Program-made: the position numbers and the translations under genes
The notes under the pieces: generated by a model
Database searches by the model: none
What the model was told of the DNA's origin: nothing
The model's input: only the letters and a program-made list of their open reading frames with translations
Part shown: positions 14,051 through 63,475 of the stretch, piece by piece
Layout of the letters: each line of letters begins with the position of its first letter
How positions within the stretch are numbered: position 1 is the stretch's first letter
NCBI GenBank assembly: GCA_034231615.1
Contig: CM067316.1
Location: 24,513,791 to 24,577,790 of the forward strand
Direction: 5' to 3'
Origin: Meghimatium bilineatum
Taxonomy: Eukaryota; Mollusca; Gastropoda; Stylommatophora; Philomycidae
Length of the DNA: 64,000 bases

Positions 14051-14167
14051 CCAGTGGGTGTGTGTTTAGTGATAGGTTTAACAGTAGGTGTGTTTAGTGA
14101 TAGGTTTAACAGTGGGTGTGTTTAGTGATAGGTTTAACAGTTGGTGTGTTTATTGATAGGTTTAACA
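14051..14167. repeat. 28-bp tandem repeat, four units
   Basis: Unit GGTTTAACAGTAGGTGTGTT followed by TAGTGATA is repeated about four times with point differences. Confidence 0.9.
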
Positions 14168-27982: not shown

Positions 27983-28537
27983 AACACTGTCAGAGATGTA
28001 TGAAACACTAACAAATCCAATACTGTTGGAGATGTATGAAACACTAACAAATCCAATACTGTTGGAGATGTATGAAACACTCACAAATCCAATACTGTTG
28101 GAGATGTATGAAACACTCACAAATCCAATACTGTTGGAGATGTATGAAACACTCACAAATCCAATACTGTTGGAGATGTATGAAACACTAACAAATCCAA
28201 TACTGTTGGAGATGTATATTACTCACAAATCCAATACTGTTGGAGATGTATATTACTCACAAATCCAATACTGTTGGAGATGTATATTACTCACAAATCC
28301 AATACTGTTAGAGATGTAGGCCTATGATACACTCACATATCCAATACTGTCGGAGATGTATGAAACACTAACAAATCCAATACTGTCAGAGATGTAGGCC
28401 TATAATACACTCACAAATCCAATACTGTCAGAGATGTAGGCCTATAATACACTCACAAATCCAATACTGTCAGAGATGTAGGCCTATGATACGCTCACAA
28501 ATCCAATACTGTCAGAGATGTATGAATCACTCAGAAG
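27983..28537. repeat. 36-bp minisatellite with TAGGCCTA-bearing variants
   Basis: About 14 units of GAGATGTATGAAACACTAAC followed by AAATCCAATACTGTTG. Shorter variants (TATTACTCAC) and four variants carrying GATGTAGGCCTAT are present. Since 36 is a multiple of three, long frames on both strands (135 and 79 codons) are artefacts of the repeat. Confidence 0.93.
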
Positions 28538-28729
28538 TCCCTAGTGGAAGTTGTACACATTAAAGAATCCTTGCTCATTCAGAAGGCAATAAAGGTAAGT
28601 TGAAAAAGCTGCTGTCCTTGTAAAGAATTAAGTTTAAAATTTATGTCTGCTCATTGGTAGAGTAGTTACAGAACTTCTACGAACTTGTTTGTGGTTCAAA
28701 AATAGATAATCCACATTGTATGACAATAT

Positions 28730-36850: not shown

Positions 36851-38739
36851 AAAGTTAATCATAGATCATCAGTCACACTTGTTTACCAACAACCATAACT
36901 TTGAAAGACAGTGTACATGCCATGTTTATATCTCTATTATAGCTAACAGTAAAGTAAAATAACATGGGGGGGGGGCGCTTATGCTAAGCTTAATTAGCCA
37001 TATTTTTCATCATTGAAGCCAAATCTGCAGAATATTGATGTTAATTCTATATGCAGAATCATTCTGGGCCTTTGTATTTAACCTGTAGCAGCCCAATGTC
37101 AACATTTTTACTCCATACACCCAATGTCGACAAATGTCACTATTGAAGTAGCCATTTGTAGTCATGGACAACAATCTTCCATGTTAATTTCCCATCACGT
37201 TTTTAAAATATTTATTTGCTATGGTGATTGTCCCTGAATTTTATGCTGCAACATATATAAACCCAGTCGTAATTTATTCTACCTCTACACATTTGCAAGC
37301 CATACTGTATGGACCTAACTTCAGTGATGCCATTGTTCGTTAATTCTTCATGGATGCTGATTTCAGATGATGATTTAGATGCAACCGCACACAACGGCAT
37401 GCGTTATTGGCTGAAATAGGCCACTATATATTCATTACTGACGTTCTTGTGTGATTGACACATGGTAATATTTAGATTGACATTCCTTGCCGGTTCCATG
37501 CGAATAGACATGCTAAATTTAGCTCTGTGATTACCGGTAATGTGGCTTTCAGAGGTGTTTTCTGATCAATTCTAAAAGCATTTCTGTTGTTTCAAACTTG
37601 CAAAAGGTTTATTATGACCTTAAATTTTCTTAAAACTTGGTAAAAATAGACCTACTTATGATTCTGATGATGTTGATAAGCAAATTCTAAAAAAATGTGA
37701 TTTTAGAGAACAAGAATGAATCAGACATTGATGGGGAATTAGTTTAGTACTTAGAATTTGAAGTAGCAATGCTTGTGGATCTGTAGTGTAGGCCTAATTG
37801 ATGATGTGCGCATCCTGCCCCGCACACCATAGACACAATGATTGAGAATAGTCAACACAGCTGATCTATGTCAATATTGATCAATTTCATGAGAAATCAG
37901 GTCCCAAAATGACATTTATCAGGATTACTCAAGACTAGGTCTAGTTTTCACTATTTCTATGTGAGTTATTCTTTGGGGGTACACGCAAAACTTTTGGTAT
38001 GCCTGTATTAAAATTTTCTGAAAAATGAGATCTATTTGGAAATCTGTTTCATCAAATATCTAGGGCTTCCTTTATGTGAACTAGGCTTATATGTTTGGAG
38101 TAGTTGACAGTTACAGAATGTTGTTGTCATGCTGTGTAAGGAAGACTGCTGTGCAGTTTTCATTTGAATATTTATTAGCAAATATATTGACACAGGTAAA
38201 TGAAGCTGATATGAAACTGGTGCTCAAAGTTTTTATCTCTTGCATGTTACATGACAAGTAAACTTATCTTACATGACATTCACAAAGATATGTTCAAGGA
38301 TATGCTCATTGACAAAGAGATGTGATAAAGGATGATTTTTACTTTGAATCAATATGAGAACATGTGATGTCAAACTCAGGAGAAATTTAGATGGTAATTA
38401 GTATTGCTGTTCACCCATGTGGAAACCAGGTCCTGGACTTGTAGTTCAGGGTGCAGAGGCTAAGACCACTATATTCTTTCCAGGCTTGTCGTAAGAGGCA
38501 ACTAAGGAAACTTGGAAGATAGGCTGACAAAATGCAAAAATGATAGGCTAAAAAATCATCATTTATCACTGCATGTTTTGAATCGATTTCTTAATTTTGT
38601 CTTCAGTCAAATGGTACCCATGGATGATGAAGGTCAGCAGACATTGTACTTTTGTAGCACACTCCTAGATGGTGGAGTGCTAGATAAACCATCACAAAGA
38701 GAAGAATGTGGCAGAAGAATAACAAACTAGTTAGAGGTA
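36851..38739. other. No gene seen
   Basis: AT-rich, with a G run at about 36967-36975. CAGGTCCTGGACTTG near 38425 resembles an inverted B box, but no body could be matched to the SINE families here. Confidence 0.35.
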
Positions 38740-39175
38740 TATGCTACGCTCCTGGCAGGATATATAGTCCTGGGTTACTGTAGCACTGGAATGTCTCACT
38801 TCAAGAAAAGTATATGCTACGCTCCTGGCAGGACATAAAGTCCTGGCTTACTGCAGCACTGGAATGTCTCACTTTGAGAAAAGTATATGCTATGCTCCTG
38901 GCAGGACATAAAGTCCTGGCTTACTGCAGCACTGGAATGTCTCACTTTGAGAAAAGTATATGCTATGCTCCTGGCAGGACATAAAGTCCTGGCTTACTGC
39001 AGCACTGGAATGTCTCACTTTGAGAAAAGTATATGCTATGCTCCTGGCAGGACATAAAGTCCTGGCTTACTGCAGCACTGGAATGTCTCACTTTGAGAAA
39101 AGTATATGCTATGCTCCTGGCAGGACATAAAGTCCTGGGTTACTGCAGCACTGGAATGTCTCACTTCAAGAACCA
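38740..39175. repeat. 73-bp minisatellite
   Basis: Six copies of a 73-bp unit starting AGTATATGCTATGCTCCTGG and containing GGACATAAAGTCCTGGCTTA and GCACTGGAATGTCTCACTTT. The inner units are almost identical; the outer ones are more diverged. Confidence 0.95.
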
Positions 39176-41215: not shown

Positions 41216-41887
41216 TTAACAATGATTTGTTGAAAATTTGAAGGGACTGAAATGCATGTCAGTATCTGAAGAGTGTTTGACAATAGGGAAGTCTGTATTA
41301 TCTTCACAGTCAACAGTGAGTCTACTCAAACTCAGGTTTGGTAAGCTGAACTTGCTTGATGATGGACTACCTAGTTCTGTTTTCACTACTTCATACACAG
41401 GTTCATACATGTCTTGAGCCATGTTGTCGCTCTCTGAGGAGTTTCGTATTGAAGACTGTGGTATTTTGTCTTTAAGGTCTATTTTGAATTGAAGATTCGG
41501 TGCGCTGGAGTGTTGTGGAGAAGTTTGTGCTTCAGGAATGCTGGAGAGGGATGGAATTGGCTTGCTGAGCTTATTCATGCTAGCATTAATGTTGCCTGAC
41601 TTTGATTTTTCGTTGATACTTTTAACATCAATGTTGTTACTCTTTCCAGGTACAGAAATAATATATTGATGAAGATTCAGACGAGGATCTAAAGTCTCTT
41701 TTCTGGGTTTCGCCCCTAGATTTCTGTTAAGATCATCGCCAAGGGACTTGTCAAGTACTTCTGTACCACTTGAAGCTAGAGACAGTGTAGACAGATTGTC
41801 TACCTGCACATCATAGTATGGAACAGCAGGTTTTCTACTATCGCTGTCTTCAGAACCTGTTGAGTACCTGTGCTCTTCTCTACTAAT
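41216..41887 (-). CDS. ADGRL: Latrophilin last exon: cytoplasmic tail
   Basis: 672 nt, phase 0 entry after the acceptor TTTCAG at 41893-41888, with a stop at 41218-41216. It encodes 223 residues, beginning ISREEHRYSTGSEDSD and then VPYYDVQVDNLSTLS. It is low in hydrophobics and rich in Ser, Asp, Asn and Lys, with no membrane segment. STGSEDSD is a block shared with latrophilin tails. The last five residues are STNHC. A minisatellite starts about 10 bases upstream of the acceptor. Confidence 0.92.
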   Translation of the reverse strand: MSREEHRYSTGSEDSDSRKPAVPYYDVQVDNLSTLSLASSGTEVLDKSLGDDLNRNLGAKPRKETLDPRLNLHQYIISVPGKSNNIDVKSINEKSKSGNINASMNKLSKPIPSLSSIPEAQTSPQHSSAPNLQFKIDLKDKIPQSSIRNSSESDNMAQDMYEPVYEVVKTELGSPSSSKFSLPNLSLSRLTVDCEDNTDFPIVKHSSDTDMHFSPFKFSTNHC

Positions 41888-44800
41888 CTGAAATCACAAC
41901 AGTAACATATAAGTTAACTTTTTGTCACATACACAACAGTAACATGTAAGTTAACCTTCTATCACATACATAACAGTAACATGTAAGTTAATTTTCTGTC
42001 ACATACACAACAGTAACATGTAAGTTAACATGTAAGTCACATACACAACAGTAACATGTAAGTTAACCTTCTATCACATACACAACAGTAACATGTAAGT
42101 TAACATGTAAGTCACATACACAACAGTAACATGTAAGTTAACTTTCTGTCACATACACAACAGTAACATGTAAGTTAACCTTCTATCACATACATAACAG
42201 TAACATTAAGTTAACTTTCTGTCACATACACAACATTAACATGTAAGTTAACATGTAAGTCACATACACAACAGTAGCATGTAAGTTAACTTTCTGTCAC
42301 ATACACAACATTAACATGTAAGTTAACATGTAAGTCACATACACAACAGTAGCATGTAAGTTAACTTTCTGTCACATACACAACAGTAACATGTAAGTTA
42401 ACTTTCTGTCACATACACAACAGTAACATGTAAGTTAACATGTAAGTCACATACACAACAGTAACATGTAAGTTAACTTTCTGTCACATACACAACAGTA
42501 ACATGTAAGTTAACATGTAAGTCACATACATAACAGTAACATGTAAGTTAACTTTCTGTCACATACACAACAGTAACATGTAAGTCACATACACAACAGT
42601 AACATGTAAGTTAACTTTCTGTCACATACACAACAGTAACATGTAAGTTAACATGTAAGTCACATACACAACAGTAACATTAAAGTTAACTTTCTGTCAC
42701 ATACACAACAGTAACATTAAAGTTAACTTTCTGTCACATACACAACAGTAACATTAAGTTAACTTTCTGTCACATACACAACAGTAACATTAAAGTTAAC
42801 TTTCTGTCACATACACAACAGTAACATGTAAGTTAACATGTAAGTCACATACACAACAGTAACATGTAAGTTAACTTTCTGTCACATACATATGAGTACA
42901 CTATAAAGGGGCTCACTGCTAATAGGGATTACTTCATTGTACTCATATTTTCCCATATGTACTATATCTCTCTCAACAACGACTATTGCACTACCGAGTA
43001 TTGGTATGAAAACATACAAATAATAGTGCACAAAGACATTTTCTTAAGGTCTTTTTAAGAAACTAAATGAGTAGGTTGAGTTTAATAGAGAAATGTAAAA
43101 GTTCTTACAAATAAGATACCATTCCATACAGTTTTCCTGCACAAGCTGCTGAGATCTTCCTATGTAAGAAAGATCATATATCTGCTTCACTGTTAACTTC
43201 GAATGATGTGACATTTTTTCAAGTACTCTCTCTACTGCATTCTGTCTCTATTTTCCTTAATTTTCTTGTTGCCACATTATGTTGAAACCTCATCATCTTA
43301 TTCTTCCTCTGCTTTTTAGGATATGAATGGTCTTCTAGATCTTCAGGTTAGTCACCAGGACGACGCTCTTAATCTTCTCAAAGTCAGAGTGGCAGACTTA
43401 AAGCCATGGTCCAGTGTGATCATGTCTTGTCTTGCAGTTCACTGAATTGTCATAATGTGACCAGAAATAACTGTGGATTTTTTTTACTGATGTTATACAA
43501 CAATATCCATCTCTATCTGCATTTTTAAACAAATGTTGATGTAAAGCTACAAAATTGCTCCCTCCAGCTCCCTAATGGGAAATATACAGTATTCTACAGG
43601 TTTTTTTTACAGTTGATGTAAAAGCTCAGGTTCACAACAGACATACACATATGCATAGACACAATTGGTTATGTATGATACATAAGATATATTACCTGCA
43701 TGTTATGCTTGCAATATTCTGAGACAAACTCTGAATCAACAACTGAACAGTCTACAAATTCAGAAAGATCCAAAGCCATTTCCTCCACTCTTTCATAGTT
43801 GTTTGCCACAAAGCCTTGCCCTCTCTCTGCTACCACTACTCCAGAACCATTACTGCTAAAACATTGAGGTTTCATACTAGCATTCCCATTGCTGCTGTAG
43901 CTGGGGTTATATACATAGCCATTGAGTGAGGAAGGGACATTGCTTGAATCTTTACTTGTTGAATTTTCTGTTCCACTTCTGTTCACATCTGAAAAATTAG
44001 ATACATTTTAATGAAGACACTTTGCGAAACTCAAGAGAGAGTATTCCATCACACAATTGAATTTTTTCAAGGTTTACTAAGTGCCACATAGATATCCTAC
44101 AAGATGCTTAGGTTCACGTGACAGGAATCAGTGAAACCAAGCTATTAATAATATTAAACTTCCTTTTTCTGCATTTGGTTTAGAAAAGAGAAGAATACTG
44201 AAGTTGTAGTTTTAATTTCTAATAATCGGTCGCATCAGCGTGAATCTGGTTGAAATGGAAGTCATTGTCAGTAAATTGATGAACTTATTTCAATGTGGAG
44301 TTTTTGACCTTAATTTTGCTTTTAATTCTGTTTTTATGAGATGACCATCACTTCTATTTTATTGCTGTTAAAAAGTTAAGTCATGGCAAGAATATGGAGA
44401 TATGCTTAACAAGGATAAACCAAACACACTGAAGATATTCTACAAGAAAGTACAAAACATAAGAAGTAAAAAAGACACCTACGTACCAACACAAATAATC
44501 GACGACAAACACAGTACATACTAAATAGGCCCCAAGAAATCATGGAAAAATTACTTCAATCAACTGTTAAACTTAACCTTTAGGGCTCTGACTTAAAATT
44601 ACACAATATCACCCTTGGGCCTGACTTATGTTTTGGAAAATTTGCGTTATTGATGGTGGGTGTTTTGAAAACGTGATAACTTTTTTTGTTTTAAAAGATA
44701 TCAAATTAATTTTTACACATCTAAATAAAGGAGTGAATAGTGAATATAATCATGAATACAATTTGTTGTTGTTGTATGTGTGATAAGACAGTTGTGAGCA

Positions 44801-47800: not shown

Positions 47801-50800
47801 GTCTTAGAACAAGTTGTCAGGAGAGCACTGTTGTATTCTAAAACAGAATTTATGTAACTGATATAGTCCTCTACAGGTATCCTTGTCTGACCCCAGGATG
47901 TGCCAGTGAGTCTTTTCGTAGCTGTAACCATTTAAGTGCTTTATATTTGATATTTTCTACATGCTTCTTGAGGGTGAGCTGCCGATCCAGCATGACTCCA
48001 AGATATGTGGATTGTTCTTCTCTTGGCAATTTCTGTATATCCAACCATAGACTGGTAATTTCTTAGGCTACTTTATGACTCTTGGTAAAGAAGGTATAGA
48101 AAGTTTTTTCAGTTTATTTTCAGCTTCCTGTTTTACAGTACTTGTGTAGTCTTCTTAAATCTCCATTAAGTCTTTTGGCTGCACTTTCAACATTCTCATG
48201 GCTCTGCCATATTGTTAGGTCATCAGCATAGAGGGATTTTTCTGCTAGATGCTTCTTGTCAGCCTTGGACAGCTTCTCTACTCTGTTCACACTGAAAAAA
48301 AGTGGCTAAATTATTCTGCCATTTCTGATCTTTGGTGATCTATCACAGATCACCAAAATTGTTCTGTTTCGATCTATCACAGGTTTATCTTTTGTTCTTC
48401 TTTTCCCAGACAAATTGTTATCAGCACCCAAGCCTTTCTACCATTTTTCCTTAGATCTAAATTAGTGCATGTTTTTGCCAATTAGTCATGTTTGGCCGTC
48501 TTCACTATTAGCGCAGTAGCTTGGTTGATAGTGTGCTTGGTTTTTATCACTGGGTTACAGCGTGCCAGGTTCAAAACCACGTCCGGACAAACACAAATTT
48601 TAAAATCTGGGTTGTGATTTCTCGCTTGACATGACCACTCCTCCAGAGTACCTGACACATGAGTTAGGGGAGTTAAAGACAGCAAGGAAGGGAACTGGCC
48701 ACCCCACCTAATAGTTTCTGCAGCTTAGTACATGAGTTATTTTCATCCCCGATGGCAAGTTGCTGCCATGGAACATACCTTTACCTTTACTATTAGTTTT
48801 CCTTTGGCACATGTTTTATTTTAAAGGATTTTTGCTTCTTACGAAGGTGCGATCTCAAGGGCTTCTCTTGCTTTTTTCCGCAAGGAATCCAGTTTGCATT
48901 TCTTTATTGTAGAATGGTTTGTAAGATTTCCTACTGCACTTTGGGATGCTTTATGATGCTGAATTGAGTATGACTTTTGTCACCTCAGTAACAAATGTTT
49001 CATTTACGTCATTGCTGTTAATATTACATTGCACGAAATAAGATGTTTCTTAGAATAGTTTGCAACCTGCCTTGCCAAAAATCCAGCAAGTTTTCAGTTT
49101 GAAATATGCTTTGTTTGGTGTAGTTATGGTGATGAAGATTGGTTTATGTCACTTCTGATGTCATCAAGGATTTCTAGAGAGCAAGAGTCCATCAGATGAA
49201 CAGATAGTCAAGTCAGGTTTACTGAGAGAAAGATAGCTCCTATGCAAAAGTATTGGTACAGACTGACAAGTTTGTTGTTTCACAGACCTCCTCTATATAT
49301 CTTCCTGTCTTATTGTGGTCCTGGTAACACCAATGGGGTAAGTGGCCATTAATGTCACTAGGAAGTATTGTTTGAAAAATTGTGTTGAATGGATTTCTGG
49401 TAAATTGCATGTTGTCTGAGGTGGGCTGTATATGTTGTAAATTGAGTATTTTTCCCTAGTGTGCCAGATGGTGCCACGGCAGTAGGTACACTTACAGGCA
49501 TAGTTGGTATATCCTGACAGATATGGGTCAGTGTCTTTGTGTAAAGTCTTCTATTACTGAAATTACCAAATGACTGATTGATTAAAGTTAACACATCATG
49601 AACACTGTATTCTGTTCCCATTAATGATGTAACATTGCTCATCACAGCAACCCTGTGTTTATGATTGTTCATTAACTACAAAGATTAAAGTCTTCTCTCA
49701 TGTTTAGAGCATGATGTTCATGTTTCTGGGACGTATAATAATGTGATAAGGGTAGAAGCTGATGTGTAAATGTTTGATGATTAAATTTTCTAAATGTATA
49801 GAAATGATAGTATTTTTAGTGCTACCTTTAAAAATAAATTTGATCTTGACTTTTAATTCCAATAGCTTTATGAGGTACGGCCTACATATTTTTACAAGTT
49901 TCTATTTATATACAGACTTTTGTCTGGTAAGGTTGACAGGTGTGTACATTTTTATTTTCAAACATGAACATAATAATACTCTGAAAAATAAAAGACACAA
50001 TAAATGATTCATTTACATTTCCAGAACCAGATGAACCAATGGGTGAGCTAGAAGCCACTCCAGTATATCCACCATAATTTACCCGGATACAGTTAGGCAA
50101 CCATGATGTACGACGGGCAACCTTCCTGTACTCCTTTTGTACCTGCAAGAATGAGATAAAACTGTTTAAAAAAAAATAATCAAAGTATGTTCTTGCAAGC
50201 TCATTATATCACCAATACCAACAGCAGAAAACTCTATGTCCTTGTGGGATGATAATGGATGTAGTTATCAAACCTTTCAACTTATCTGCAGCTTATTTGC
50301 CCTCACAATTTTAAGTATACCGTTCGTAGTGAACTTATACCTGGCAATTAAGTGGTTTCTGAGGATTCTCATGGCAACCTATCTGTAACTAGTAGTGAAA
50401 CCCTAGAATTTTACTTTTAATTCCACATTGGTGTTTCTACCACATTTTTTATGAGGAAATTTTCTAGATCTTGTGCAAGTCCAAGATTAACATTTCACAC
50501 AATATGGCTGGGAGCTTCTACTCCAGATGAACAGGCAGCTTTATATAATGGGCAACATCTCTCTCATACATCTCTATAAAATACACATTTCTCTTTCACA
50601 TTTTCTATTAAAATTATATCCCACGAAGTAGTCCCAAATGCAAAATTTAATGTGTTTTTGTTTTTAAAGTCTTGATTTCCTGTGAAATCTTTCTTGCACT
50701 TAACTGTCTAAAGAAATATTGCCTGGCATAAACTCTTTGATCAGTAGAAGATGTTAATGGATGTACTAAAGTTTCTCATTCACTTCCAGCCTTTGCCTTG

Positions 50801-53800
50801 AGTTCACTTGCAATAATACATGATCAATGGTGTGAAGCCTTTATTGTATGCACACTGATCAGTTTTAAAAGGATAATTTGCTGAATTCTGTCATGTCTTA
50901 GGATGGATTCATGTTTGTAGTTTTGTCTGTTTTCTACTTCATGCTATGTATTATTGTTCTTTTATTTTTTAAGTGTTTATGCTTGGAAGCTATAATGTCC
51001 TGGAAGGTAATGTTATCATGAGACAAGAAAACACACAAAAGTCTTGGACTCCCTAGTACCTAGACAACAAGTGGTTATTGGCAGAAAGTGCAATGATGAT
51101 GGTCCAAAATTAAACATGATTAGAAATCTATAAACAAAATTAAAACTGAGGTGTATAGAGGCATCTCCCATTCTGAGAATTTGAAGAATGATTTTACATG
51201 CTCTGACTGAATACAATGATAATTACTAACCTTCTCATTCTTTACACAGTGGAAGACAAAAATAAACAATCCCTGCAGGCTGTTGAGAACAGTGAAGAAG
51301 TAGGCAACCACCACAGTTTCTTCATTCAAGTACAGAACTCCTAAAAGCCATGTTAGACCCAGCAGAATAGCAAGGACAATGGCCCCCTTTAACCAGGCTC
51401 TGTGTAAACACAAACACGTAACTGCTTAAAATACTTTCAAAGTAGACTTTGTTTTAAAATAGTAACAAGATATTGCACAAAATACTTCACAACAGAGCGA
51501 TGCACACCAAACTCGATAAGAATAAAATCTATTATGAGAACTCACTAAATTTTATGTTTACTCAAATTCTTATTAACATTCATTATGAAATTTCACAGAT
51601 GTTTAAGTTTAAACAAATTTTGCGGTAGTCATGTGAAATCTCAGTGAATTATTTAGTTTACTCACTTCATGTTGCTATCATCTTGTCCCAGGCGGTGACA
51701 CTAATGATGTACAGTTGCTGCTAAGCATAGGGGTGGGCATAGCTTTAGTTTTTATTATAAAGCTAGATCTTTCACCTCGGTTATGCCATATTCATATTTA
51801 TTGCATATGTCTTTGATGTTCTTTATCATTATGTTTCTCTCAATCTGTAACCTGATTGTGTTTTATTATATTATTACGCCCTACATGTAGGAAGGTGAGT
51901 GTGTTACATTCTCACAGCAGTTGCTGTCTCTCCATATATTCAATATAATGCCTATTCTATTTCTGATGTCATAATTTCGTAACATAACTAATCTGGTAGC
52001 AACAACAGTCTTTCTAAATCATATCATTTTACATGTTCTAGACTTTTTTTGGTGAAGATATGAGTGTTGAAGCCTGTCATTGGAAACAGTCTATTGTCTA
52101 TCCCCATGTGAATGATGATTGATAGTATCCACACTTGCCGTTAAGCGCAGGGGTGGAATCTTTAGTTGTTGTTCAAACGTCAGATTTGTCACCTTTGGAA
52201 ACAGTATTAGTAGAAAAATACTCTTTATCATTTATTTTTTTGACTTCAATCTTGATCATCAGATGTTTAAGTAGTAAGTAAAAACTGATAATTTTGAAAA
52301 TATGAAAACAAGGAGATATTATTTTCTATGTTGTGTGATTCAATTTGGATAGATCTGTGTTATTCTTAAGAGGAATTAAGGAAAAGTGGAATAAAAGTGA
52401 ATTATTATAGGCATATCCTGATGTTAGATCCAATCTGTGTGAATTTCATCTCCACTACAATATGTTATCAGAAAGGTCTAATGATCCTACACCTTCAATA
52501 TATTAAATGCTGTTAAATGAGTATGCGTAGGCCTATTTTATTTCTGATGTCCATTTCATAACAAAACTAATGTATTCATAATATCATTTGTGAAAACAAA
52601 CAAAACACATCAATCTCACTGACATTATCAGATAACTCTAATGATCATACAACTTCAGAAATGTTGTGAAGCAGTAATTGTAACCTTATGGGGTTCTATT
52701 AACTACACAGATGACACTTTTCACTGCCAGAAACAATTGACAAAGAACTGTTGTAATAACCCTCAGCAATCTGGAGCTAAGAAACAATATCAGCATCTGT
52801 AATATCAAGAAATACTTCATCACCAGAATCTGAAAAAAATATTCCTCAAACATGGTTGTCATTTTGAACAATTTTGATAGATTGCATACATTTACACTAA
52901 AACTCTATTGCAACATTTTGCTTTGCAAATACAAACTGGAAGGCAAGTTAAATGTCTAACTTTGATTCCTTTGTTACCCGGATGAATGATGTTAGTTTAC
53001 ATTCTTGATATCCTTGTTGAAAGCGGTGCATTACAACAGGTGACTCAAGTCTGTGACAGAGGTGCAAAATATATTGTGCCTGTAAAGTTTAATCATCAAC
53101 AGCGTGCTAAAGGTTAACAAACATGTAACAAGACATTTGCATTGCACCCAAAAAGGTCACTATAAGTATTCGTTGAATTAAATTATGATATACTAATTCC
53201 ATAAACATATATTTTGTTGAAGTGGTATTCTGTCATTTATTTTGTCTACAATTAGTAGATTCACTAAACATCTACCACATAGGCTGACAGTGACTTTTAC
53301 TCTAGCGTATCTTTTGTATATTGATCAGTCACCATAAAATGGTTTCCAGGTGTATATGCTGAAAACAAAACTAGCCAAGCAGTTTCTGGTCAACCACTGT
53401 CTAGACAGCTGAGTATACCTACTTATGATTAAAACTAATTGCCAAAATGCCGACCTATAGTTCAACCTTCCTTTAAACTTCTGTAAATAAATATCAGTAG
53501 ACCTACAATATATTACACATCTTTAAATACAATTTTGTGCATGAGAGCCTATTAGTTAAAATTCTGCAAATACAAAGGTCTTGGAGATGCAGAGGCATGC
53601 AACTAAATAAATCACTGCAAATAAAACAAATTTAAAATTGAAACAAATGTGAAAAGCAACTAAAATTATAACTTGTAAAAGTACAGTCAACATCCCTGAG
53701 AATCTGCCAGCAATTATTATGTACCAGGTAATTTAAGTTTTATTAGGTTTTTATTTTGTAGTACTTGTGTATAAGTGTACACACAGACTTGAATAAAAAG

Positions 53801-56800
53801 TGAGACACACTTAACCACAATTAAGTATAAAAGAGCTAACAAATGTATGTGAAAAAAGATTGTCAGGGATGAGCTGCAAACAAAATTTATCCTGTCTACA
53901 TCTTGGTGGCCATGAGTGAAAGCTAGATGTATATCAAACATCACAAAGGCAATAATGAAAGCGAACTCTGACTAAACAAATGCATTCCTTCTGCTAGCTC
54001 ATGGATAAACTTAAGCCATTTTTCAAATAATGAGTGAATGTGATGAGGCAAAGAAGTAGATCAGAAAGCACAAGAAATATTTTTTTGTATGAGAAAGCAA
54101 CAAAATATTCATATGTAAAAAATACTAAAATTGCAAAGAAAAAGTAAAATTAGTTTTGCTTGTGACTACTAATGACTATCTACAGAGTGTTGATTAATTT
54201 TGTCATATGTGATTGACTTAATAATCAGAGTTCGCTTTTGCATTTTCGTGATGTTAATTTTCTGGAAGAGCTCCATGGGGAAGTGGTCAAGCCTTGCTTT
54301 TACAAGGTAGCAGGTGCAAGAAACTGGCTAGATCTATCTATCATTGTTGCCTTTCAGCATCAGGGGTAGAAGAGTTTTCCAGAGATGGCCCTCGTGTGTG
54401 CTGAGTATATTGTGGAATTTGCCACCTCTTTTATTTCAGTGGTCCATCGTTTTTATGGTCGGCCTCTAGGTCTGCCTTCACTGTATCTGTGTAGCATAGC
54501 TTGCTGTGGTATGCTGTCTGATAGTAGTCTGCTGATGTGTGAAAATAATTTGATCTATTGTCTCTTAATAACTTCCAAGATTGGGGTGGTGCTGGTTCTT
54601 TGTTTAATGTCCTGATTCATCACACTGTCTCTTTGCAATATTCCTAGAATTCTGCATAAGCATGTTATTTCAGTTGGCACATGTTTATGTTTGTCTTGTG
54701 CTGTCATTGTCCATGTTTGGCATTGGTAGCACAGTGATGGCATAATAATTGTGTTGAACAGTGTTATTTTGGTCTTTAAATCGACAATTGTGTTTCTGAA
54801 GATTGTTGTCATTTACGCTAGGGCTTGGTATACTTTACTACATCTATTGTGTATTTCTTTGCTGCTCTTGCCGTATGTTGTTATATTGCTTCCTAGGTAT
54901 GTGAATTCCATTTTACTATGAGCCACTGTGTTCTCACTGATGGTTTGCTAATCCTGTCTCAGTGTTGTATCAGGAAATTCACATGGCTACACCGTGATCT
55001 CTAACACATACAGAAAGAAACCACATATTCCATGGGAATAGTCCTGAAACACCGAACTAGACTTCCATTTGTGGTCACAAGAATAACACAGCTGTCACTT
55101 CGTACCATTTTACCGAAAGGCTACATCTGCTTGTTCAAAAGTGAATGTTTAGTGGTTCATAATTATTATCACTTGTATTATAGAGTTAGTACCACTCTGA
55201 GTAGTAGGCCTATTTTTGACAAGCAGCTTGCTACACTTTTGGAAAGGGAAGAGTATTGATAGGTAAACTTGTATACAATAAATAGAATAGTATGCACATT
55301 TCAAGCACCTTTCCAGTTAATATTCACTAATTTTTATAAACTAATTTTTTGTATATTAACGACAAAGGAATTTCTTATTTCTAATATTAACTATTTTAAT
55401 TTCAAATATTATAATACCCGCTACAGTTCTGTGGTGGTGAAATACTGAGTATCAAAACTCACTGCAGGCAATTGTGCATCTAGACTGTTCAGAAAGGAAT
55501 GGCAAATTTAAATACTGCCAAGAAAATCACTACAGTCAACAAATACTGTATTGATGGCTAAATCTTGAATAGAACATGATGCCCCCAAAAATATCAACTG
55601 AATTGTACAACATTGTTACAATATCAAAATATATAATAATTAAAATTGTTATAGTAAATATAAACCATTAACATGATAGGTTTGTTACTGTCAAACATCA
55701 GAAGTACACAAAATAATGACTAAAATGCTAATGAAAATAATAATTATTAAAGAAGCCAACTGAAAAAAAAAGAATACAAGAGAGAAAACATTCTTCAAAA
55801 TGACAAAGAGTTTCTTACGGTAAATCTGGGAAACGTAACTTTGGAGGTGCAAAAGTCTCCATGCTGCTGAGACTCTCTGTGATGCTGCATTTATTTAATT
55901 ATCACATATGTGGTTAAAGATGAAGAAAAATGTACACACTTATCTGTACATACAACTAGCTCATAGGTAAGATTCAGAGATAAAATGTAAACTTATCTGT
56001 ACATACAACTAGCTCATAGGTAAGATTCAGAGATAAAATGTAAACTTATCTGTACATACAACTAGCTCATAGGTAATATTCAGAGACAAAATATTGTACA
56101 CACTTATCTGTGCATACAACTAGCTCACAGGTAAGATCAGAGATTAAAAAAATGTACACACTTATCTTTACACACTTATCTGTACATACAACTAGCTCAT
56201 AGGTAAGATTCAGAGATAACAAAATGTACACACTTATCTGTACATACAACTAGCTCATAGGTAAGATTCAGAGATAACAAAATGTACACACTTATCTGTA
56301 CATACAACTAGCCCATAGGTAATATTCAGAGATAACAAAATGTACACACTTATCTTTACACACTTCTCTGTACATACAACTAGCCCATAGGTGATATTCA
56401 GAGACAACATATTGTACACACTTACTGCGCATACAACTAGCTCACAGGTAAGATCAGAGATAAAAAATGTACACACTTATCTGTACATACAACTAGCTCA
56501 TAGGTAAGATTCAGAAATAACAAAAAGTACACTTATCTGTACATACAACTAGCTCACAGGTAATATTCAGAGACAACATATTGTACACACTTATCTGTGC
56601 ATACAACTAGCTCACAGGTAAGATCAGAGATAACAAAATGTACACACTTATCTGTACACATTTATCTGTGCATACAACTAGCTCATAGGTAATATTCAGA
56701 GACAACAAAAATGTTTTATGTCAAAGAAGTGTCTATGTCAGATAGAAGATTGTATCTAAATATGCTTTTGTCATTTCATTTGTTTCCAGTCAAATCTGTT

Positions 56801-59800
56801 TTGTTTTCATTTCTCCGAATGTTTAATAATTTATTGCATCTATTGTAATACTTCATTGAAACTGTGGTCCACCTATTATCAATGGTCTAGTTCATTTGTG
56901 CTATTAATTAAATTTGCAATTTATTTGATAATTGGTTGTTGATCGAATGTCAGTTTGATTTGTTTGTGAACTGTAAACTTGTTTCATATTCTCTGTACCT
57001 ATTAAAAAATGTTTTTAATGTAAAAACCACCCAATGTGTGCATACAAACATATACCTCTCACATACAAGGGTGCCTCAAATGAAAACTATAAAAGTGTGA
57101 TAAAAATTAGATTAAACATGGCACTGTCTTGTAACCTGTCAATATTGTTTAGGGTGACAAGTGTGTCCTGCATGTGACTTCTTAGTGTAAACATGTAATG
57201 TGTCATAAAAATGGCAGTGTAAAGATTGCTGTTTTACTATTGATATGCATCAATGAGAAGCAGTATTCCATTATCCATCTTTTGATTAGTGAAGGGGTGA
57301 AGCATATACAAATTCATCAGTGAATAAAAGTTCAGTATGGCATGCAAGGCCAATCCAGCATGTTTATAATTTGAGTAGGAAGTTTAAAAATGACATGAGT
57401 TCTGTGACAGACTTCAAGGTAGGGTTAGTCACACTGAGCAGTGACAACAGAGTTGATTGCCAGAATGCAGATGTTGAATGCCTTGTACAGGAAAACCAAA
57501 GACTGACTGTGAGTGATGATACTGCACATATACACATAAGTCAAGGTTAAGTATACCACATCATTAGGATGTTCTACAATATCACATAGTGTCTGCCACA
57601 GCAGTTTGACTTTCAGTTCTGATGAAGAGGTACAGCAGGTAGTGCAGGAGTAGAGACATGACCAAGAGAATTGTTTCTACAGGAATCCAAGCACTTTATA
57701 GGAGCTCCAAGACTACTTGTATCAAACACCATGGTGACTACATAAAAAAATGATACAGTTGTGCTTCACTTTTCAGAAAGTATTCACACAAAAAAATGTT
57801 TATGGTTTTCATTTGAAGTGCCACAATGTATGCTGTGACACTGAGCTCTTGCCACACAGTATAAAACTATCGGATGCTATTTAAACTTAAAGTTCTAAAT
57901 GCTGATAAATTTCTTTGAGCTGAGGGCATGTGGCCCACCAACTAAAAATAATTAGTTTGGAAACATTACTTATTCTCCATCATCAATTTATAGCACAACA
58001 TGATCAACTATGTTGAGAAAAATTATCTGCTGCAATATTTTAGGAATTTATCTGCTGCGATATTATAGGAATAACATAAAATGAGGATGGTTTGAAAACT
58101 CAGGTAAATAAAAGTATACACCTGTGAGTTGCAAATTGAGAGTTGTGTTTTTTTAAAATATTTACTGCGATGGGCATCACAGCACATATAGAACTAAGCC
58201 TAAGTTTCATGCTGTTCTTCTCTGCTAGGAATGTAATCCCAGCTAAAATGAGTTTATCACTTTGCAACCAGCAAAAAATGTGAAACACATCTTGTTACAA
58301 CAACTAAGAAGTTACAAGGTTTACTGTTTCAAAGATGTATAAGGCCATTGTCATCCAAAAGCAACACAATGCATCTCTCAACTACATTCTGCTGGAAATA
58401 TAACAGGGCCATAGCGCTACAAAAGAGATTCTGAAAGAGTTTGAGAATGACAACTAAAAATGTGTTTAAATGAAGATCATGCACACAAGCAGAGACATGA
58501 AAAGTTATATGTATAAAAGGAATCTTTTGAAGAAACTTCCAGCTGTATTAGAAAACCAGATCACAGAACTAATGTGATTTTTCAATCACAGGTTACATAT
58601 AGATATCCACAGAAGATGTATCACTTTGTACTCAGGCATGCTCTGAGCAGGAAAACAACTCTGTATACTTGTGGCACATTGCTGATTATAAATTTACAAG
58701 TGATATCCAACATCTGAAGTGAATCTTCCTGTCTGGAAAATCTCACGAACATGGAATTCAGTATTTGGTTGATGACATAGACCTATATTGTATAAAAGGC
58801 AACTGTAAGCTATCAAAGTCTCAATGAATGCAATGATTTATTCTGATGGGAACATGCCCATAGTCAAAATGTTATGTGTTTGGGGACAAAAAATATATTT
58901 TTAATGTATGATATATTGATATATGAATATTGAAATCTGATTATTGATATATTGATATCTGATTATTGATATATGATGTATCTGATAGGTTGTGGTGATA
59001 CTTTTTTCTTACAGCTTAGAAATGATACCAACTCTGGCTTTTGAAATATGATTAGCTTACGTAAACACTTCAAATACAGTTTATCACAGTTTATCAGTAA
59101 ACACTATTTCTATATCAACATTGCACATGTTGTTGTTCATCCATCACAAGTGATGTTGACCATTTGTTACATCCACTTTTGAAATTAATTTAGAGTAATG
59201 TACTTGACGATGAGTTCATAATGGCTTATAAGCCATATTCTACCTGTAATTTTCTTCCTACTCTTTGCTGTTGAGGTTGCTGCATTTTTCCTATTTCACA
59301 AGATGTTTGGCCTTTTTATTGTAGAGCTCCATGTAGCTTGTAGAGCTCCATGTAGCTCTATTTCATGCAGCGTCTTCCCCTTTATTCAGATTTATTTCAA
59401 AGGCTTTCATTGAGGTCTTTAACATTCCTTGTAGTGTTTCTTTTGGCCACATTGAGAACATAGGCCGTTCATGCATCTCACCAGAGAGAAGTAATTTTCA
59501 TGTATCAACATCTCAGATACAGTTTATAGTAAGATTATATCTATATCAGCATCTGAGATACAGTTTATCAGTAAAGATAATTTTTATGCTTATGAAAACC
59601 AGAAGTAAATCATCTTGTATATGTTTTGAAACTTGCTGCTTTTCATTGTACAATAGCAACATATAGCAAGTGTGATAGCATATATGCCTGACATAAACAA
59701 ATTTATACAGCACAATAGATTTACCTAAACTTGGTGGTTTTGGACCTCTCTCTCATGGTGGCAGACATGTTAGAATGACGACACATAATATAGATAGCAA

Positions 59801-62800
59801 TGCTCAGCATAACAATATTGATCTGTGAGGAGTAAACAAAGTAAGTTCATTAACTCCTAGAACGTGGGATCCCAAACTTTTGGCAATTAAGTACATTTAA
59901 CTTTCCCTGAAGGACTGATGTTTTTGGAATTTTGACTTTACAAAATAGTAACTCTAATAATAATTATTCAAGAATTGATGTACAAGTTTTACCTGCATCA
60001 TAAGTACTCATTGCATTGTGGAAAATTCCATTACAAAATGGTGTACATGTTGATGGTATCTTGTGTTTGTTAAATTATTTTACAGATGAGAAAATGTGCT
60101 ACAATGTCAAGATTTTTGTGATCTAAAAAGAACTAACAGTTGAGCACATTGTTGAACTTGTGCTTTAAGTTTCAAAGCATGATGAATTAGATTTAGATGA
60201 TGATTATTCTGAAAATGATATAGAAATTGACTCAGACGATCACTTGAATGAGTACAGTAGCTTTAATAAATCATAACAGTTGTTGTAGTAATTTTCCTAG
60301 TTCATAACTGGCTCAAGCTACAATCTATGGGAACATATTTTGGTACATTATACATAGTTTATCATGTAATTATGATTCAGGTTATACTCCTACTAATATG
60401 TTTGCACTCATGTGTACCTGCAGACACAAAATTTGTTGAACATACAGGTCCTCAGAAAATTCTAGAATCTATTTCTTCAGATAGTAAAAGATATTGAACT
60501 TTTAGAATTTCTCCTGGAAAATAGTTTCTGGCAAAATTTTTATGAACAAATAGACATGTTACACAAGTTAGAGACAAAAAGCTTCCACTTACTACATTAA
60601 AAAGCATAAAAATGTATAAGTTCCAAAATGTATGAGTTCCAGTGATGAAAGCTTTCTTCAGACTATGCCTTCAAATGGAGCACAGTGTGAGAAAACCATG
60701 ATATGAAGACTATTGTGGTTCAGCTCCTCAACACATATCATTTCTGAAACTTATGGTTTTTGCGCTGTGATGGAAAGACAGCTTTCTTTCTTTATGGACT
60801 TTTCTTTACCTTGTTAGTAAGGAGAACCCTGCTCTTAATAAAACAGAGAAGTACAAATTCATACTATGCTGAATTTGTTGCTTCCAAGGTTTCAACACTA
60901 TTATTTATCATCACAACACTTGAGTTTAGATGAAGGCATTATCCCATCTAAAAGCAGACTTTCATTCAAACAATACATCAAGTCAAAACTGATTTCTTCT
61001 TCTTTAATTCACTTGAAACATGTCTATATCTGTAATTCTGTCTCCTGAATAAAACTCACTGTCTTTTGTAGTTCATACAGTGTCCCATAGAGCTTTGATT
61101 CCAGTGTTGTTTCCTCTGACCAATATGTCTGCCTCAGCTTTTTATGCTCAGAACACTCTTGAAGTATATGTTTGGCACTCTGTGCTGCCTGTCCACATGT
61201 ACACATGGTCATGTTGCCAATCTTGAACTTTGTAACATGTGACTGCAGAGTTGGTTGTGTCCTGCTCTGAGGCGTAGAATTATAACTTGTTCTGATCTGT
61301 TCATAATGTGATAGTCATCTTGTGTTGGTGTTTGTGGCTTTCTCAAAACTGATAAAGTTGGAAATAAAACTCTACATGGCATGTGAATCCATCTCAGGAT
61401 GTATTTTGAATGTGGAAATATATACCTACTGGAAGAACACAGGATGATATCCTAGAACTAGGTGTTGTCAGTCAGTGTTAGTAAGAAAAAAAAAGTATCA
61501 TTGTCATAGACAAGTTTTACAACAGTGTTTCTCTCCTTTAACAACTTGTACAATGATTATGGAACATTTGCAGTGGGGTCAGAAATGGTAAATAAGAAAT
61601 TTTACCCAAGAGAACTGACAAGAAAGAAGAAAATGGTCAGGGGCTGTCAGAATTAGTTTCGCACAATAACATTATCTCTTTTATGGTTGGATAAAAGACC
61701 AATCCATTTTATATCCAACTGTCCCAACACAATTTGAAACTATTATAAGGAGAAACAAGGATAGAAAAACAGTGGATATTCCAATTCCTCAACTATATAT
61801 TGACTACAATGCTTTCATTGGTGGGTGTGATGTCAATGACCAAGTATGTCATCTCAATAGAATATGTCAATATTATCGTTATATGCAAAGATTACTTGTA
61901 ACGTTTTTCATATGGGCATGCAATATTGCAGATATAATAATTAACAGCTACAACCCACACAAAATGACTGGAAAACACTATAAAACATTTGTTCATGATT
62001 GAAATATGTTTGTCCCTAATCAGCAGTTACATAATAGCTGCAGAAAATGCCAGAACCATATTGATATACCATAGATACTGCAGAATGTTGGCATCCACTA
62101 GTTTCTGTGACTTTTCCACCATGACATACTATGATAGACCATTCAAAAAAGTAAAAACCAAATTTTGGTGTTGTTATTGCATCACTTATCTATGCCTAAA
62201 GGAAGTGTCTACATGCTGGTAGGACTAGCACAAGAAAGCAGGAGTACTGGAGATCATAAGGTCAGTCAACATTATATAATAATTCTGAAGCAACCCAAGG
62301 TGATGTGTATCACTTTGTGAAATATTCCCACAAAAAAAAAACTTGAAATGTTCCCAGAAAAAAGTACCAACATTCATACAAAATAAAGTGAACTACTCTT
62401 TGTATTAACTAGCAAAAAAATCCCTCCTCTTATGAAAGTCTTATTTACAGCCTGATTGGTTGTATGCACATTTCTTACATTTATATATTCATACTGCAGC
62501 TATTTCATTTTATACATGGTAGGCCTACATTTATTTCATGAAGTGTCTAGTCTTCTCTCCACAATTTTGGTTGACTTCAAGATTTGGTGTTATCCCCGAA
62601 AGCTCCCAGATTTCACATGAATAAGTAAGGATAGATATTTAAGTTGAGTATCCTAAGCTTTGCTCCTGTAGGCTTACTTAAGATTTTTATTTCCATATCT
62701 TCCATGTTTCTCAATACTAGTGATATCATTGTGATTTTTGTTCTAACTTTTTAAAAGCCAGAGATACATGGTTAAATATGTTGATTGTATTAAATGTTTA

Positions 62801-63475
62801 CAGTTAGTGACAGATGAGGTCAGATAATTCTCATTAGTAAAACTTAAAAAAAAAACAACAAGGACTCAATTGACATAGAGGATTGACCTCATTGTACTTG
62901 GGTTTCCCAATATGTACTTCATCTCTCCCAATGAAGTGGCATGCTGCTTATTGAGAGTACCACTCATAGTATGTAACTCCATACCTTCTAGCATTTGTCA
63001 CCAGTCCCTGAAAAATCCACATTGTAAACAAGATGTCATAAGCCAGATTTGAACCCACAACCCCATGAGCTCAAGGTGAATGGCTCAAGAATAATGCCAG
63101 GAAAAACCCAATTTAGTAAAACAGAACTTCCATGTGTGTTAACAATACATTTTCTGAGCTACTTTGATTTGTGAATTTTGTTTTCTGGTCTTGTTAAGAG
63201 TCTCTTGATGAACATTTTGATGCTGTTTTTTTTCTGAGTAACAGAGAAATCTTCATTTCTTATAATTCATCATTGGTTAATAGTTTTCCTGCAGTCTACC
63301 AAATATTTGTGTATTTTCATTGGTTAATAGTTTTACTGCAGTCTACCAAATATTTGTGTATCTGATCTGCTACATATAAAAATAAACACTCCACATATAG
63401 AAACTCACCAGCATGACTGCAAGGGCAGGGCCTACAAAACTCCATATAAAATATTTCTCTGTGGTCAGCCAGCAA
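41216..63475 (-). CDS. ADGRL: Latrophilin-type adhesion GPCR, 3' part (8 exons, 5' end outside window)
   Basis: Minus-strand exons 63475-63409, 59822-59725, 55884-55819, 51399-51231, 50142-50017, 47262-47181, 43988-43696 and 41887-41216 join in one frame across GT-AG borders. They give 523 residues to the stop (501 without the 66-nt exon). Readable parts are ECL2 CWLTTEKYFIWSF, TM5, a loop with RHSNMSATM, TM6 with LLGLTWLLG, and TM7 LNSLQGLFIFVFHC. A serine-rich tail of about 395 residues includes HRYSTGSEDSD. These motifs match latrophilins, plasma-membrane adhesion receptors that bind teneurins and FLRTs in other animals. The GAIN domain, lectin domain and TM1-4 lie beyond the right edge. 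The last residues (STNHC) are not a class I PDZ ligand, unlike vertebrate latrophilins. Confidence 0.93.
41895..42890. repeat. About 1-kb minisatellite abutting a splice acceptor
   Basis: More than 25 units of about 37 bp (CACATACACAACAGTAACAT then GTAAGTTAACTTTCTGT). A second unit type, in which ATGTAAGT replaces TTTCTGT, gives an irregular higher-order pattern. The first unit reaches to within about 10 bases of the acceptor AG of the last exon. The presumed branch-point and pyrimidine region of that intron therefore lies in repeat sequence. Confidence 0.95.
42890..43010 (-). mobile_element. SINE tail fragment, family S3
   Basis: Plus-strand TACTTCATTGTACTCATATT and then CCCATATGTACTATATCTCT match the segment at about 62885-62935 (CCTCATTGTACTTGGG ... 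CCAATATGTACTTCATCTCT). Only the 3' body is present. Confidence 0.6.
43696..43988 (-). CDS. ADGRL: Latrophilin exon: cytoplasmic tail
   Basis: 293 nt. Entry takes two bases (AT) that complete an Asn codon begun in the previous exon; exit is phase 0 at CAG followed by GTAATA. It encodes VNRSGTENSTSKDSSNVPSS ... YVYNPSYSSNGN ... MALDLSEFVDCS ... CKHNMQ. Ser/Asn-rich, no membrane segment. Confidence 0.9.
44577..45502. mobile_element. 926-bp piggyBac-like MITE flanked by TTAA
   Basis: TTAA at 44573-44576 and 45503-45506 flank ends CCTTTAGGGC and, inverted, CCTTTAGGAT. Outside, the LINE frame resumes cleanly (NQLLNL before, GRRN after), so the insertion duplicated only TTAA. No transposase is encoded. 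TTAA target and short CC-ending inverted repeats are the piggyBac signature. Kolobok also uses TTAA. Confidence 0.8.
46100..46320 (-). mobile_element. Jockey-like RT fragment nested in a LINE
   Basis: The minus strand reads VVPEKWLHSYLIPMPKPVKD and then MDIKGYCIITLQNVYSKILE. This is the early RT region ('vP..W....ipi.KpgkD....yRpIsL....K..Er') in opposite orientation to the surrounding LINE. Confidence 0.65.
46831..47180. other. Intron sequence, nothing recognised
   Basis: AT-rich intronic sequence downstream of the exon ending at 47181. Confidence 0.5.
47181..47262 (-). CDS. ADGRL: Latrophilin exon: cytoplasmic tail, 82 nt
   Basis: Acceptor TTTTTCAG precedes 47262; donor GTAAGT follows 47181. 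Phase 0 entry, phase 1 exit. It encodes YLSKLFGQRNRNSAASTNSS and then AKPFLGN. Skipping it alone would shift the frame; skipping it together with the next exon (82 + 293 = 375 nt) would not. Confidence 0.88.
47590..49930 (-). mobile_element. Jockey-like LINE with EN and RT traces, minus strand (intronic)
   Basis: Reading the minus strand from the right: an ORF1-like block (IISIHLENLIIKHLHIS, about 49810) and an APE-type endonuclease trace (FNGHLPHWGYQDHNKTGRYI, about 49350; LTICSSDGLLLS, about 49190; HKPIFITI, about 49130). Then the RT catalytic box SLYADDLTIWQSHEN (about 48230), LKRLTGTSWG-like (about 47900), VLEYNSALL and a terminal ACDIHTNVELLEIKKDM block (about 47700). Frames are broken many times. 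A SINE splits it at 48512-48788. Confidence 0.78.
48512..48788 (+). mobile_element. tRNA-derived SINE, family S1 (nested)
   Basis: About 80% identical by eye to 1186-1483, with B box GGTTCAAAACC and the same 3' end ACATACCTTTACC. The 8-bp target duplication ACTATTAG lies at 48504-48511 and 48789-48796. It inserted into the minus-strand LINE. Confidence 0.9.
50017..50142 (-). CDS. ADGRL: Latrophilin exon: membrane-proximal tail
   Basis: 126 nt, phase 0 at both ends. Acceptor CTTGCAG, donor GTAAAT. It encodes VQKEYRKVARRTSWLPNCIR and then VNYGGYTGV, ending SGSGN. The KEY basic stretch directly after TM7 is conserved in latrophilins. Being a multiple of three, it could be skipped in frame. If the intron is retained, the frame continues 21 residues and stops. 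Confidence 0.9.
50143..51230. other. Intron, nothing recognised
   Basis: 1088-bp intron between the TM7 exon and the next exon; AT-rich, no repeat family recognised. Confidence 0.5.
51231..51399 (-). CDS. ADGRL: Latrophilin exon: TM6 and TM7
   Basis: 169 nt; acceptor TTACACAG, donor GTTAGT. The first base completes a codon from the upstream exon; the exit is phase 0. It encodes AWLKGAIVLAILLGLTWLLG (TM6, with the conserved Trp), NEETVVVAYFFTVL and NSLQGLFIFVFHCVKNEK (TM7). This is the most diagnostic exon for the adhesion GPCR class. Confidence 0.96.
51660..52700. repeat. Diverged direct duplication in intron
   Basis: Blocks at about 51705-51755 (TTGCTGCTAAGCATAGGGGTGG), 51950-51990 and nearby recur at about 52130-52165 (TTGCCGTTAAGCGCAGGGGT) and 52530-52575 (TTTATTTCTGATGTCC). 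TCTAATGATC blocks also repeat near 52477 and 52630. Confidence 0.5.
52701..54269. other. Intron, nothing recognised
   Basis: AT-rich intronic sequence; short frames only. Confidence 0.4.
54270..54960 (-). mobile_element. RTE-like LINE 3' end, minus strand (intronic)
   Basis: The minus strand reads TKITLFNTIIMPSLCYQCQT, PTEITCLCRILGILQRD and then LCYTDTVKADLEADHKNDGP-like sequence near 54470. It has a GATAGATA-type tail at 54333-54345. It is the same family as 44380-46830 on the opposite strand. Confidence 0.75.
55819..55884 (-). CDS. ADGRL: Latrophilin 66-nt cassette exon in intracellular loop 3
   Basis: Acceptor AAATGCAG before 55884, donor GTAAGA after 55819. Entered and left in phase 2, with no stop in that frame: ITESLSSMETFAPPKLRFPD and then L/P. 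Included, the loop reads KTTKFS plus this segment and then PAWLKGA. Skipped, it reads KTTKFRAWLKGA, which is closer to other latrophilins. It adds 22 residues with Ser/Thr sites and prolines next to TM6. Whether it is used is an inference from splice sites and phase. Confidence 0.75.
55930..56715. repeat. 58-bp minisatellite upstream of the cassette exon
   Basis: About 13 units of ACACTTATCTGTACATACAA, then CTAGCTCATAGGTAAGATTC and AGAGATAACAAAATGT, with variants. It begins about 45 bases upstream (minus-strand sense) of the 66-nt exon's acceptor. Confidence 0.94.
57066..57828 (+). mobile_element. Internally deleted mariner-like element (intronic)
   Basis: Ends CAAGGGTGCCTCAAATGAAA and, inverted, CATTGTGGCACTTCAAATGA are terminal inverted repeats flanked by TA (57064-57065 and 57829-57830). 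Inside, the plus strand has a transposase N-terminal HTH region (HLLISEGVKHIQIHQ, then SVTDFKVGLVT, then VECLVQENQRLTVSD). The C-terminal end follows directly (SSDEEVQQVVQE, then FYRNPSTL). The catalytic DD(D/E) core between them is missing, so this is a deletion derivative, also with frameshifts. Confidence 0.88.
57829..59239. other. Intron, nothing recognised
   Basis: AT-rich with a GATATATTGATAT-type low-complexity patch at about 58905-58985. No exon recognised. Confidence 0.4.
59240..59480 (-). mobile_element. LINE C-terminal fragment (tentative)
   Basis: The minus strand reads MWPKETLQGMLKTSMKAFEI, NRATWSSTSYMELYN and then KAKHLVK. This resembles the C-terminal block of LINE proteins with 'R..WR..v..G...fE' spacing. 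Short and decayed. Confidence 0.45.
59725..59822 (-). CDS. ADGRL: Latrophilin exon: TM5 and intracellular loop 3
   Basis: 98 nt; acceptor CTCACAG, donor GTAAAT. Phase 0 entry, phase 2 exit. It encodes INIVMLSIAIYIMCRHSNMS and then ATMRERSKTTKF plus the first two bases of the next codon. CRHSN after TM5 is a conserved latrophilin feature. Confidence 0.93.
60160..62235 (+). pseudogene. piggyBac-type transposase relic (intronic)
   Basis: Plus strand, antisense to the receptor gene. In order: an acidic N-terminal stretch (DELDLDDDYSENDIEIDSDD, about 60183) and a block with FVEHTGPQKILESISSDSK (about 60430). MKAFFRLCL lies at about 60640. LSLDEGIIPSKSRLSFKQYI (about 60920) holds the first catalytic Asp, DKFYNSVS-like sequence (about 61510) the second, and LLWLDKRPIHFISNCPN (about 61680) the third. 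The last block is IPIPQLYIDYNAFIGGCDVN plus DQ (about 61785). Order and spacing fit DDE_Tnp_1_7 proteins. Stops, frameshifts and a LINE insertion at 61030-61330 kill it. Confidence 0.88.
61030..61330 (-). mobile_element. LINE C-terminal end nested in piggyBac relic
   Basis: An open minus-strand frame reads QPTLQSHVTKFKIGNM, then MCTCGQAAQSAKHILQECSE, then LRQTYWSEETTLESKLYGTL, ending FIQETELQI. CxCG ... HILxxC is the C-terminal zinc-like motif of RNase H-bearing LINEs; a relative lies at 6360-6600. It interrupts the piggyBac frame between its first and second catalytic Asp blocks. Confidence 0.82.
62236..62879. other. Intron, nothing recognised
   Basis: AT-rich intronic sequence after the piggyBac relic. 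I could not find a clear TTAA-flanked right terminus. Confidence 0.4.
62880..63110 (-). mobile_element. tRNA-derived SINE, family S3, minus strand
   Basis: On the minus strand the head has the B-box-like GGGTTCAAATC (about 63052) and the body TTGTTTACAATGTGGATTTT, then TATGGAGTTACATACTATGA. It ends GAAGTACATATTGGGAAACC. It matches 20231-20440 and, for its 3' part, 42890-43010. Confidence 0.72.
63271..63361. repeat. 47-bp tandem duplication
   Basis: CATTGGTTAATAGTTTTCCT and then GCAGTCTACCAAATATTTGT occurs twice with one base difference. It ends about 50 bases downstream of the donor of the 63475-63409 exon (minus-strand sense). Confidence 0.92.
63409..63475 (-). CDS. ADGRL: Latrophilin exon: ECL2 and start of TM5
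   Basis: 67 nt; acceptor TTTTACAG, donor GTGAGT. The first base ends a codon from an exon outside the window; the exit is phase 0. It encodes CWLTTEKYFIWSFVGPAL and then AVML. The Cys is the expected ECL2 half of the ECL2-TM3 disulfide, and CWL with FIWSFVGPA is strongly conserved in latrophilins. Confidence 0.95.

Follow-up and report, generated by a model that had tools for sequence, protein, structure and literature searches.

A 66-nt exon in the window, the 64,000-nt stretch of the slug Meghimatium bilineatum genome analyzed here, is a genuine coding exon under selection. We propose that it is probably a regulated alternative exon in the third intracellular loop (ICL3) of a latrophilin-type receptor, and that its function is to tune G-protein coupling.

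Gene structure and receptor identity

The exon lies on the minus strand between the exons for TM5 and TM6-TM7, with introns of 3,840 nt upstream and 4,419 nt downstream. The features of the gene that fall within the window are as follows, slashes here and below marking exon borders.

63409..63475, minus strand: exon for ECL2 and the start of TM5, 67 nt, CWLTTEKYFIWSFVGPALAVML
59822..59725, minus strand: TM5 exon, 98 nt, ending ..KTTKF + AG, phase 2
55885..55907, minus strand: cassette acceptor and conserved upstream intron flank, within the A/B alignment of the two gene copies described below, AATGTGATA.TT.AAA..AATGCAG
55884..55819, minus strand: cassette exon of 66 nt in ICL3, phase 2/2, translated as (S)ITESLSSMETFAPPKLRFPDL(P)
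55811..55818, minus strand: cassette donor ACC/GTAAGAA, with CC instead of AG at the exon end in both gene copies
51399..51231, minus strand: TM6-TM7 exon, 169 nt, AWLKGAIVLAILLGLTWLLG..KNEK
50017..50142, minus strand: exon after TM7, 126 nt, VQKEYRKVARRTSWLPNCIRVNYGGYTGVASSSPIGSSGSGN
43696..43988, minus strand: exon of the C-terminal tail, with a conserved counterpart in the C18 paralogue
41216..41893, minus strand: large open frame of the C-terminal tail, shared in part with the C18 paralogue, exon borders provisional

Read in the sequence, the acceptor AG of the cassette occupies 55886-55885 and its donor GTAAGA starts at 55818. The TM5 exon ends at 59725 with ..AAG TTT AG/gtaaat, and the TM6-TM7 exon begins at 51399 with acacag/A GCC TGG. 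Phase 2 is common to the two introns that flank the cassette and to the single TM5-TM6 intron that is left when the cassette is skipped. The included form reads ..KTTKF-SITESLSSMETFAPPKLRFPDLP-AWLKG and the skipped form ..KTTKF-R-AWLKG, a net difference of 22 residues. Inclusion places Pro instead of Arg directly before TM6, as it does in the C18 copy, and Ser, Thr and Pro together account for 10 of the 23 insert residues. The first-pass annotation had described the exon in these terms, as 66 nt long with AG and GT borders and phase 2 on both sides, situated between the TM5 and TM6-TM7 exons, in frame whether included or skipped, and rich in Ser, Thr and Pro; its coordinates all check out, its borders and phase read as it had them, both readings are open, and the composition agrees.

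The same annotation had called the gene a latrophilin, an assignment that was borne out by domain and structure searches. The 7TM sequence, a query roughly hand-joined from exon translations, matched the Pfam family 7tm_2 (E = 1.7e-62). When this roughly hand-joined query was compared with the PDB, the best 60 of 97 matches were headed by ADGRL3 (277 bits) and ADGRL2 (264), with lower scores for ADGRL4 (203), ADGRD1 (184) and ADGRE5 (181 bits); no ADGRL1 chain was among these best 60. Upstream, outside the window, two joined exons at ~111-114 kb of the extended stretch encode a SUEL_Lectin domain (E = 6.9e-21), and exons between the lectin and the 7TM region encode HRM (7.2e-12), GAIN (1e-10) and GPS (1.4e-14) domains. 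By the features examined, the gene is a latrophilin-type (ADGRL) adhesion GPCR. We also observed, between the exons for the lectin and HRM domains, a fibronectin-III-like region at ~101.6-102.7 kb of the extended stretch (C19, outside the window), which scored 28.9 bits in the C18 copy, above the Pfam cut-off, and 13.7 bits in the window gene, below it. To our knowledge there is no such region between lectin and HRM in vertebrate latrophilins. The olfactomedin domain of latrophilins is found in vertebrates only and is missing from invertebrates, according to the available text of a review (PMC6629964).

A constrained paralogous exon on C18

A search of the slug's own genome (1.61 Gb, 32 contigs) with a 241-base query returned two matches at E ≤ 0.001, the query itself and C18:38052605-38052710 (83% identity, E = 9.6e-21). 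The second match lies in a paralogue of the receptor gene; we refer to the window copy, on C19, as A and to the C18 paralogue as B. The corresponding features of copy B are:

38056976-38057071, minus strand: C18 TM5 exon, paralogue of the window TM5 exon
38052605-38052710, minus strand: C18 cassette match, between the paralogous TM5 and TM6-TM7 exons
38045151-38045318, minus strand: C18 TM6-TM7 exon, paralogue of the window TM6-TM7 exon

The gene copies are collinear, and the C18 cassette is also 66 nt long, in phase 2/2; its AG and GTAAGAA borders match those of the window copy, and the two exons align without an indel. The inserts of A (SITESLSSMETFAPPKLRFPDLP) and B (SVTESLSNMQTFASPKLRFPDLP) are identical at 19 of 23 residues and 55 of 66 bases. 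The predicted frame alone is open in both copies, frames 0 and 2 having one stop each in the C18 copy; thus a check for a conserved open frame, run within the same genome on this paralogue, found the exon open and conserved. Differences between the cassettes fall at 7 of ~13 synonymous sites versus 4 of ~50 nonsynonymous sites (dN/dS ~0.09, Fisher p = 0.0007). Eleven exons were compared in this way; the lectin and GPS exons gave no ratio because their synonymous sites were saturated, and the eight others ranged from 0.02 to 0.16. The cassette ratio lies within this range, indicating that the protein sequence of the exon is constrained as it is elsewhere in the receptor, and retention of the same exon in a second gene copy indicates that it is real.

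A mutually exclusive second exon was sought in the intron by comparing A with B, and the cassette was the sole non-repetitive collinear match. A second collinear match, 81% identical and pairing 58374-58449 with 34722-34797 in the B stretch, was rejected as a further exon because its A side is a dispersed repeat with five matches in B. Tandem repeats are also found near the cassette. A minisatellite at 55927-56710 (unit ~53-58 bp) starts 43 bases upstream of the window exon; the corresponding place in the C18 copy is free of arrays, and the arrays of that copy lie ~30 bases downstream of the exon (27-bp x 2.9) and ~1.2 kb upstream (70-bp). Elsewhere in the window, minisatellites with units of ~25-75 bp occur at 598-958, 14046-14167, 17935-18359, 26661-27185, 27986-28540, 38737-39166 and 41895-42890. 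Separately, we noted a nuclear copy of mitochondrial DNA at C2:121.99 Mb, with COX1 read in the invertebrate mitochondrial code and pieces that we take to be ND2 and ND4; the COX1 motifs are tentatively of molluscan type.

A second pair of latrophilin-like genes

Latrophilin-like genes at C18:4.63 Mb (P) and C19:40.69 Mb (Q) form a second pair, with TM6-TM7 exons 58-59% identical to that of the window. Their TM5-TM6 intron has the same phase 2, reading ATCAG/gtaatt .. ttcag/AGCTTGG in P. Between the TM5 and TM6-TM7 exons, P and Q shared no collinear match at E ≤ 1, in a comparison in which the P intron contains a 14-base unread gap. From these sequences, the P and Q receptors most likely have the short loop only; a fast-changing exon in P and Q, or an exon within the 14 unread bases of P, is a possible alternative.

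When a further TM6-TM7 exon at C19:41.09 Mb is counted with those at C18:4.63 and C19:40.69 Mb, identity to the window exon spans 56-59%; the exon at 41.09 Mb closely resembles the one at 40.69 Mb but has an internal TGA. Two independent latrophilin-type gene pairs thus each have one member on C18 and one on C19, which suggests that C18 and C19 are paralogous chromosomes, as expected after genome duplication. A genome duplication in land snails and slugs is stated in the available portion of PMC12328838.

Splice sites and the case for regulated use

We scored acceptors with a leave-one-out matrix drawn from the same genes, the training set comprising at most 39 sites. Twenty-one A/B blocks were aligned, of which 20 contributed acceptors and 19 donors, the borders of the HRM block (acceptor and donor) and of the first GAIN block (donor) being left out as unclear; with one P acceptor added, the set came to 41 acceptors and 38 donors. 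The two cassette acceptors were the lowest of the 41 (-2.55 and -1.31, the next being 1.80). Neither copy has a pyrimidine tract near this acceptor, the pyrimidine fraction at -20..-5 being 0.44 and 0.38 versus at least 0.56 in the other 39. The cassette donor, ACC/GTAAGA, ties for fifth and sixth weakest of the 38. The intron flanks showed high conservation between A and B, the cassette ranking first of 20 for its upstream flank and second of 19 for its downstream flank. Regulated exons typically combine a weak acceptor with conservation of that acceptor and of the flanks; these are indirect signs of such use, although a weak acceptor can be compatible with constitutive use too. Taking the weak splice sites and the flank conservation together, we infer that the cassette is likely used alternatively, with both forms being made.

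In the mechanism that we envisage, the splicing machinery would skip the cassette by default because of its poor acceptor, and a cell-type factor would promote its inclusion. In the skipped form ICL3 would be short, with Arg as the last residue ahead of TM6; inclusion would lengthen the loop by 22 residues, adding several Ser and Thr residues and exchanging this Arg for Pro where TM6 begins on the cytoplasmic side. Changes to the loop and the TM6 foot may then alter G-protein preference or basal coupling, in the manner of mouse Lphn3 with and without its exon E24. Because ICL3 and the TM6 foot contact the G protein, it is most likely, by analogy, that the long and short forms differ in one or other of these properties.

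Three other explanations were weighed against this proposal. The one that survives best, though we consider it doubtful, places the cassette in a neural programme of the Srrm/eMIC type, in which it would be skipped outside neurons and included in neurons via a TGC at the acceptor. TGC directly precedes the AG in 3 of 40 acceptors, namely both cassette copies and one other, and this trait is joined by the very weak acceptor, the weak donor and stretches free of AG, 54 and 86 nt long, which rank 11th and 4th in length among 40, a combination that resembles the eMIC exon list given in the available part of PMC8797185. Against this assignment, 66 nt exceeds microexon length, the flanking introns measure 3.8 and 4.4 kb versus the short ones in flies, and no long UCUC-type tract lies beside the acceptor. 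The SRRM_C/eMIC profile PF15230 matched nothing in this genome; since the 14 control genomes gave no match to it either, that result carries no weight for or against.

It is unlikely that the cassette is constitutive, such that this receptor always has the long ICL3 and the P and Q genes and the insert-less human isoform (below) are simply other receptors. Protein-level constraint equal to that of neighboring exons, and the short loop as the only form seen in the P/Q pair, are what this explanation predicts well; it sits poorly with an acceptor that is the weakest of the scored genes and is kept in both copies, with flanks more conserved than those of other exons, with the symmetrical phase and with the known alternative exon at the same position in mammals. 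A chance open frame or a functionless exonised repeat, which the repeat-filled intron and the minisatellite 43 bases upstream might bring to mind, is very improbable, being contradicted by the collinear C18 copy with the same borders, by the two genome places at E ≤ 0.001 and by the low dN/dS.

Comparison with mammalian ICL3 exons

The regulated cassette that we favor has a counterpart in human ADGRL3, for which structures in the PDB represent isoform 4 with the insert NYEDNRPFI (8vti) and isoform 1 without it (7sf7), at the same alignment position as the cassette. The ICL3 location assigned by the first-pass annotation is thus upheld by alignment with the human isoforms. In both receptors the in-frame ICL3 insert ends one residue before a conserved pair at the start of TM6, S-W in human and A-W in the slug. 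The inserts differ in length (9 residues in human versus 22 in the slug) and in their effect on the residue before TM6, which on inclusion stays Lys in human ADGRL3 whereas Arg becomes Pro in the slug receptor. Residue alignment of the mammalian and slug inserts gave no convincing similarity; function therefore cannot simply be transferred, and what we propose is a shared place and a likely shared role, with no claim of common descent.

Mouse genes offer functional and expression data for exons of this kind. Exon E24 of mouse Lphn3 encodes part of ICL3, and when it is skipped coupling moves from Gs towards G12/13, as described in the available text of PMC10830413. Like the slug cassette, E24 lies between TM5 and TM6, and it is a precedent for the coupling switch that the first-pass annotation had suggested. 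Exon 23 of mouse Adgrl2, likewise an ICL3 exon, varies with cell type, its inclusion reaching ~74% in glutamatergic transcripts, ~49% in GABAergic ones and ~7% in endothelial ones, according to the accessible portion of PMC13108381; it resembles the slug cassette in its location and in a length that is a multiple of three, and differs in encoding 15 residues (same portion of PMC13108381) versus 22. In the section of a review available to us, splicing of Lphn2 and of Lphn3 is described as altering the third loop (PMC6629964).

Other reports bear on how general this arrangement is. In the available part of a mouse short-read survey, ICL3 length varies by splicing in Bai3/Adgrb3 and Gpr124/Adgra2 (PMC6667449), which belong to other adhesion GPCR subfamilies than the slug latrophilin. 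Table 2 of that survey, in the same part, leaves ADGRL1-3 unmarked for 7TM variability and, under ICL3, lists Bai3 and Gpr124 alone, which counts against the reading favored here. A 2026 review describes, in its available sections, 7TM and 7TM-less forms made by splicing of Drosophila Cirl, and no invertebrate ICL3 exon (PMC13197933). Our search of the literature on latrophilin splicing in molluscs, gastropods or Cirl found no paper titled on the subject.

This type of exon is already known from mammals, and the slug exon would add a putative protostome case. More tentatively, we entertain the possibility that splicing within ICL3 of latrophilins is a signalling switch of ancient bilaterian origin, an optional coupling-changing exon present in the same intron in mammals and in this protostome, of which the site and its regulation may have been kept, or re-invented at that position, and the peptide fully turned over. 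If the insert is indeed optional, ancestral splice control of latrophilin coupling becomes testable, as does the question of whether loop length or the TM6 foot outweighs the inserted sequence, and the same splice switch as in mammals would be placed in a protostome.
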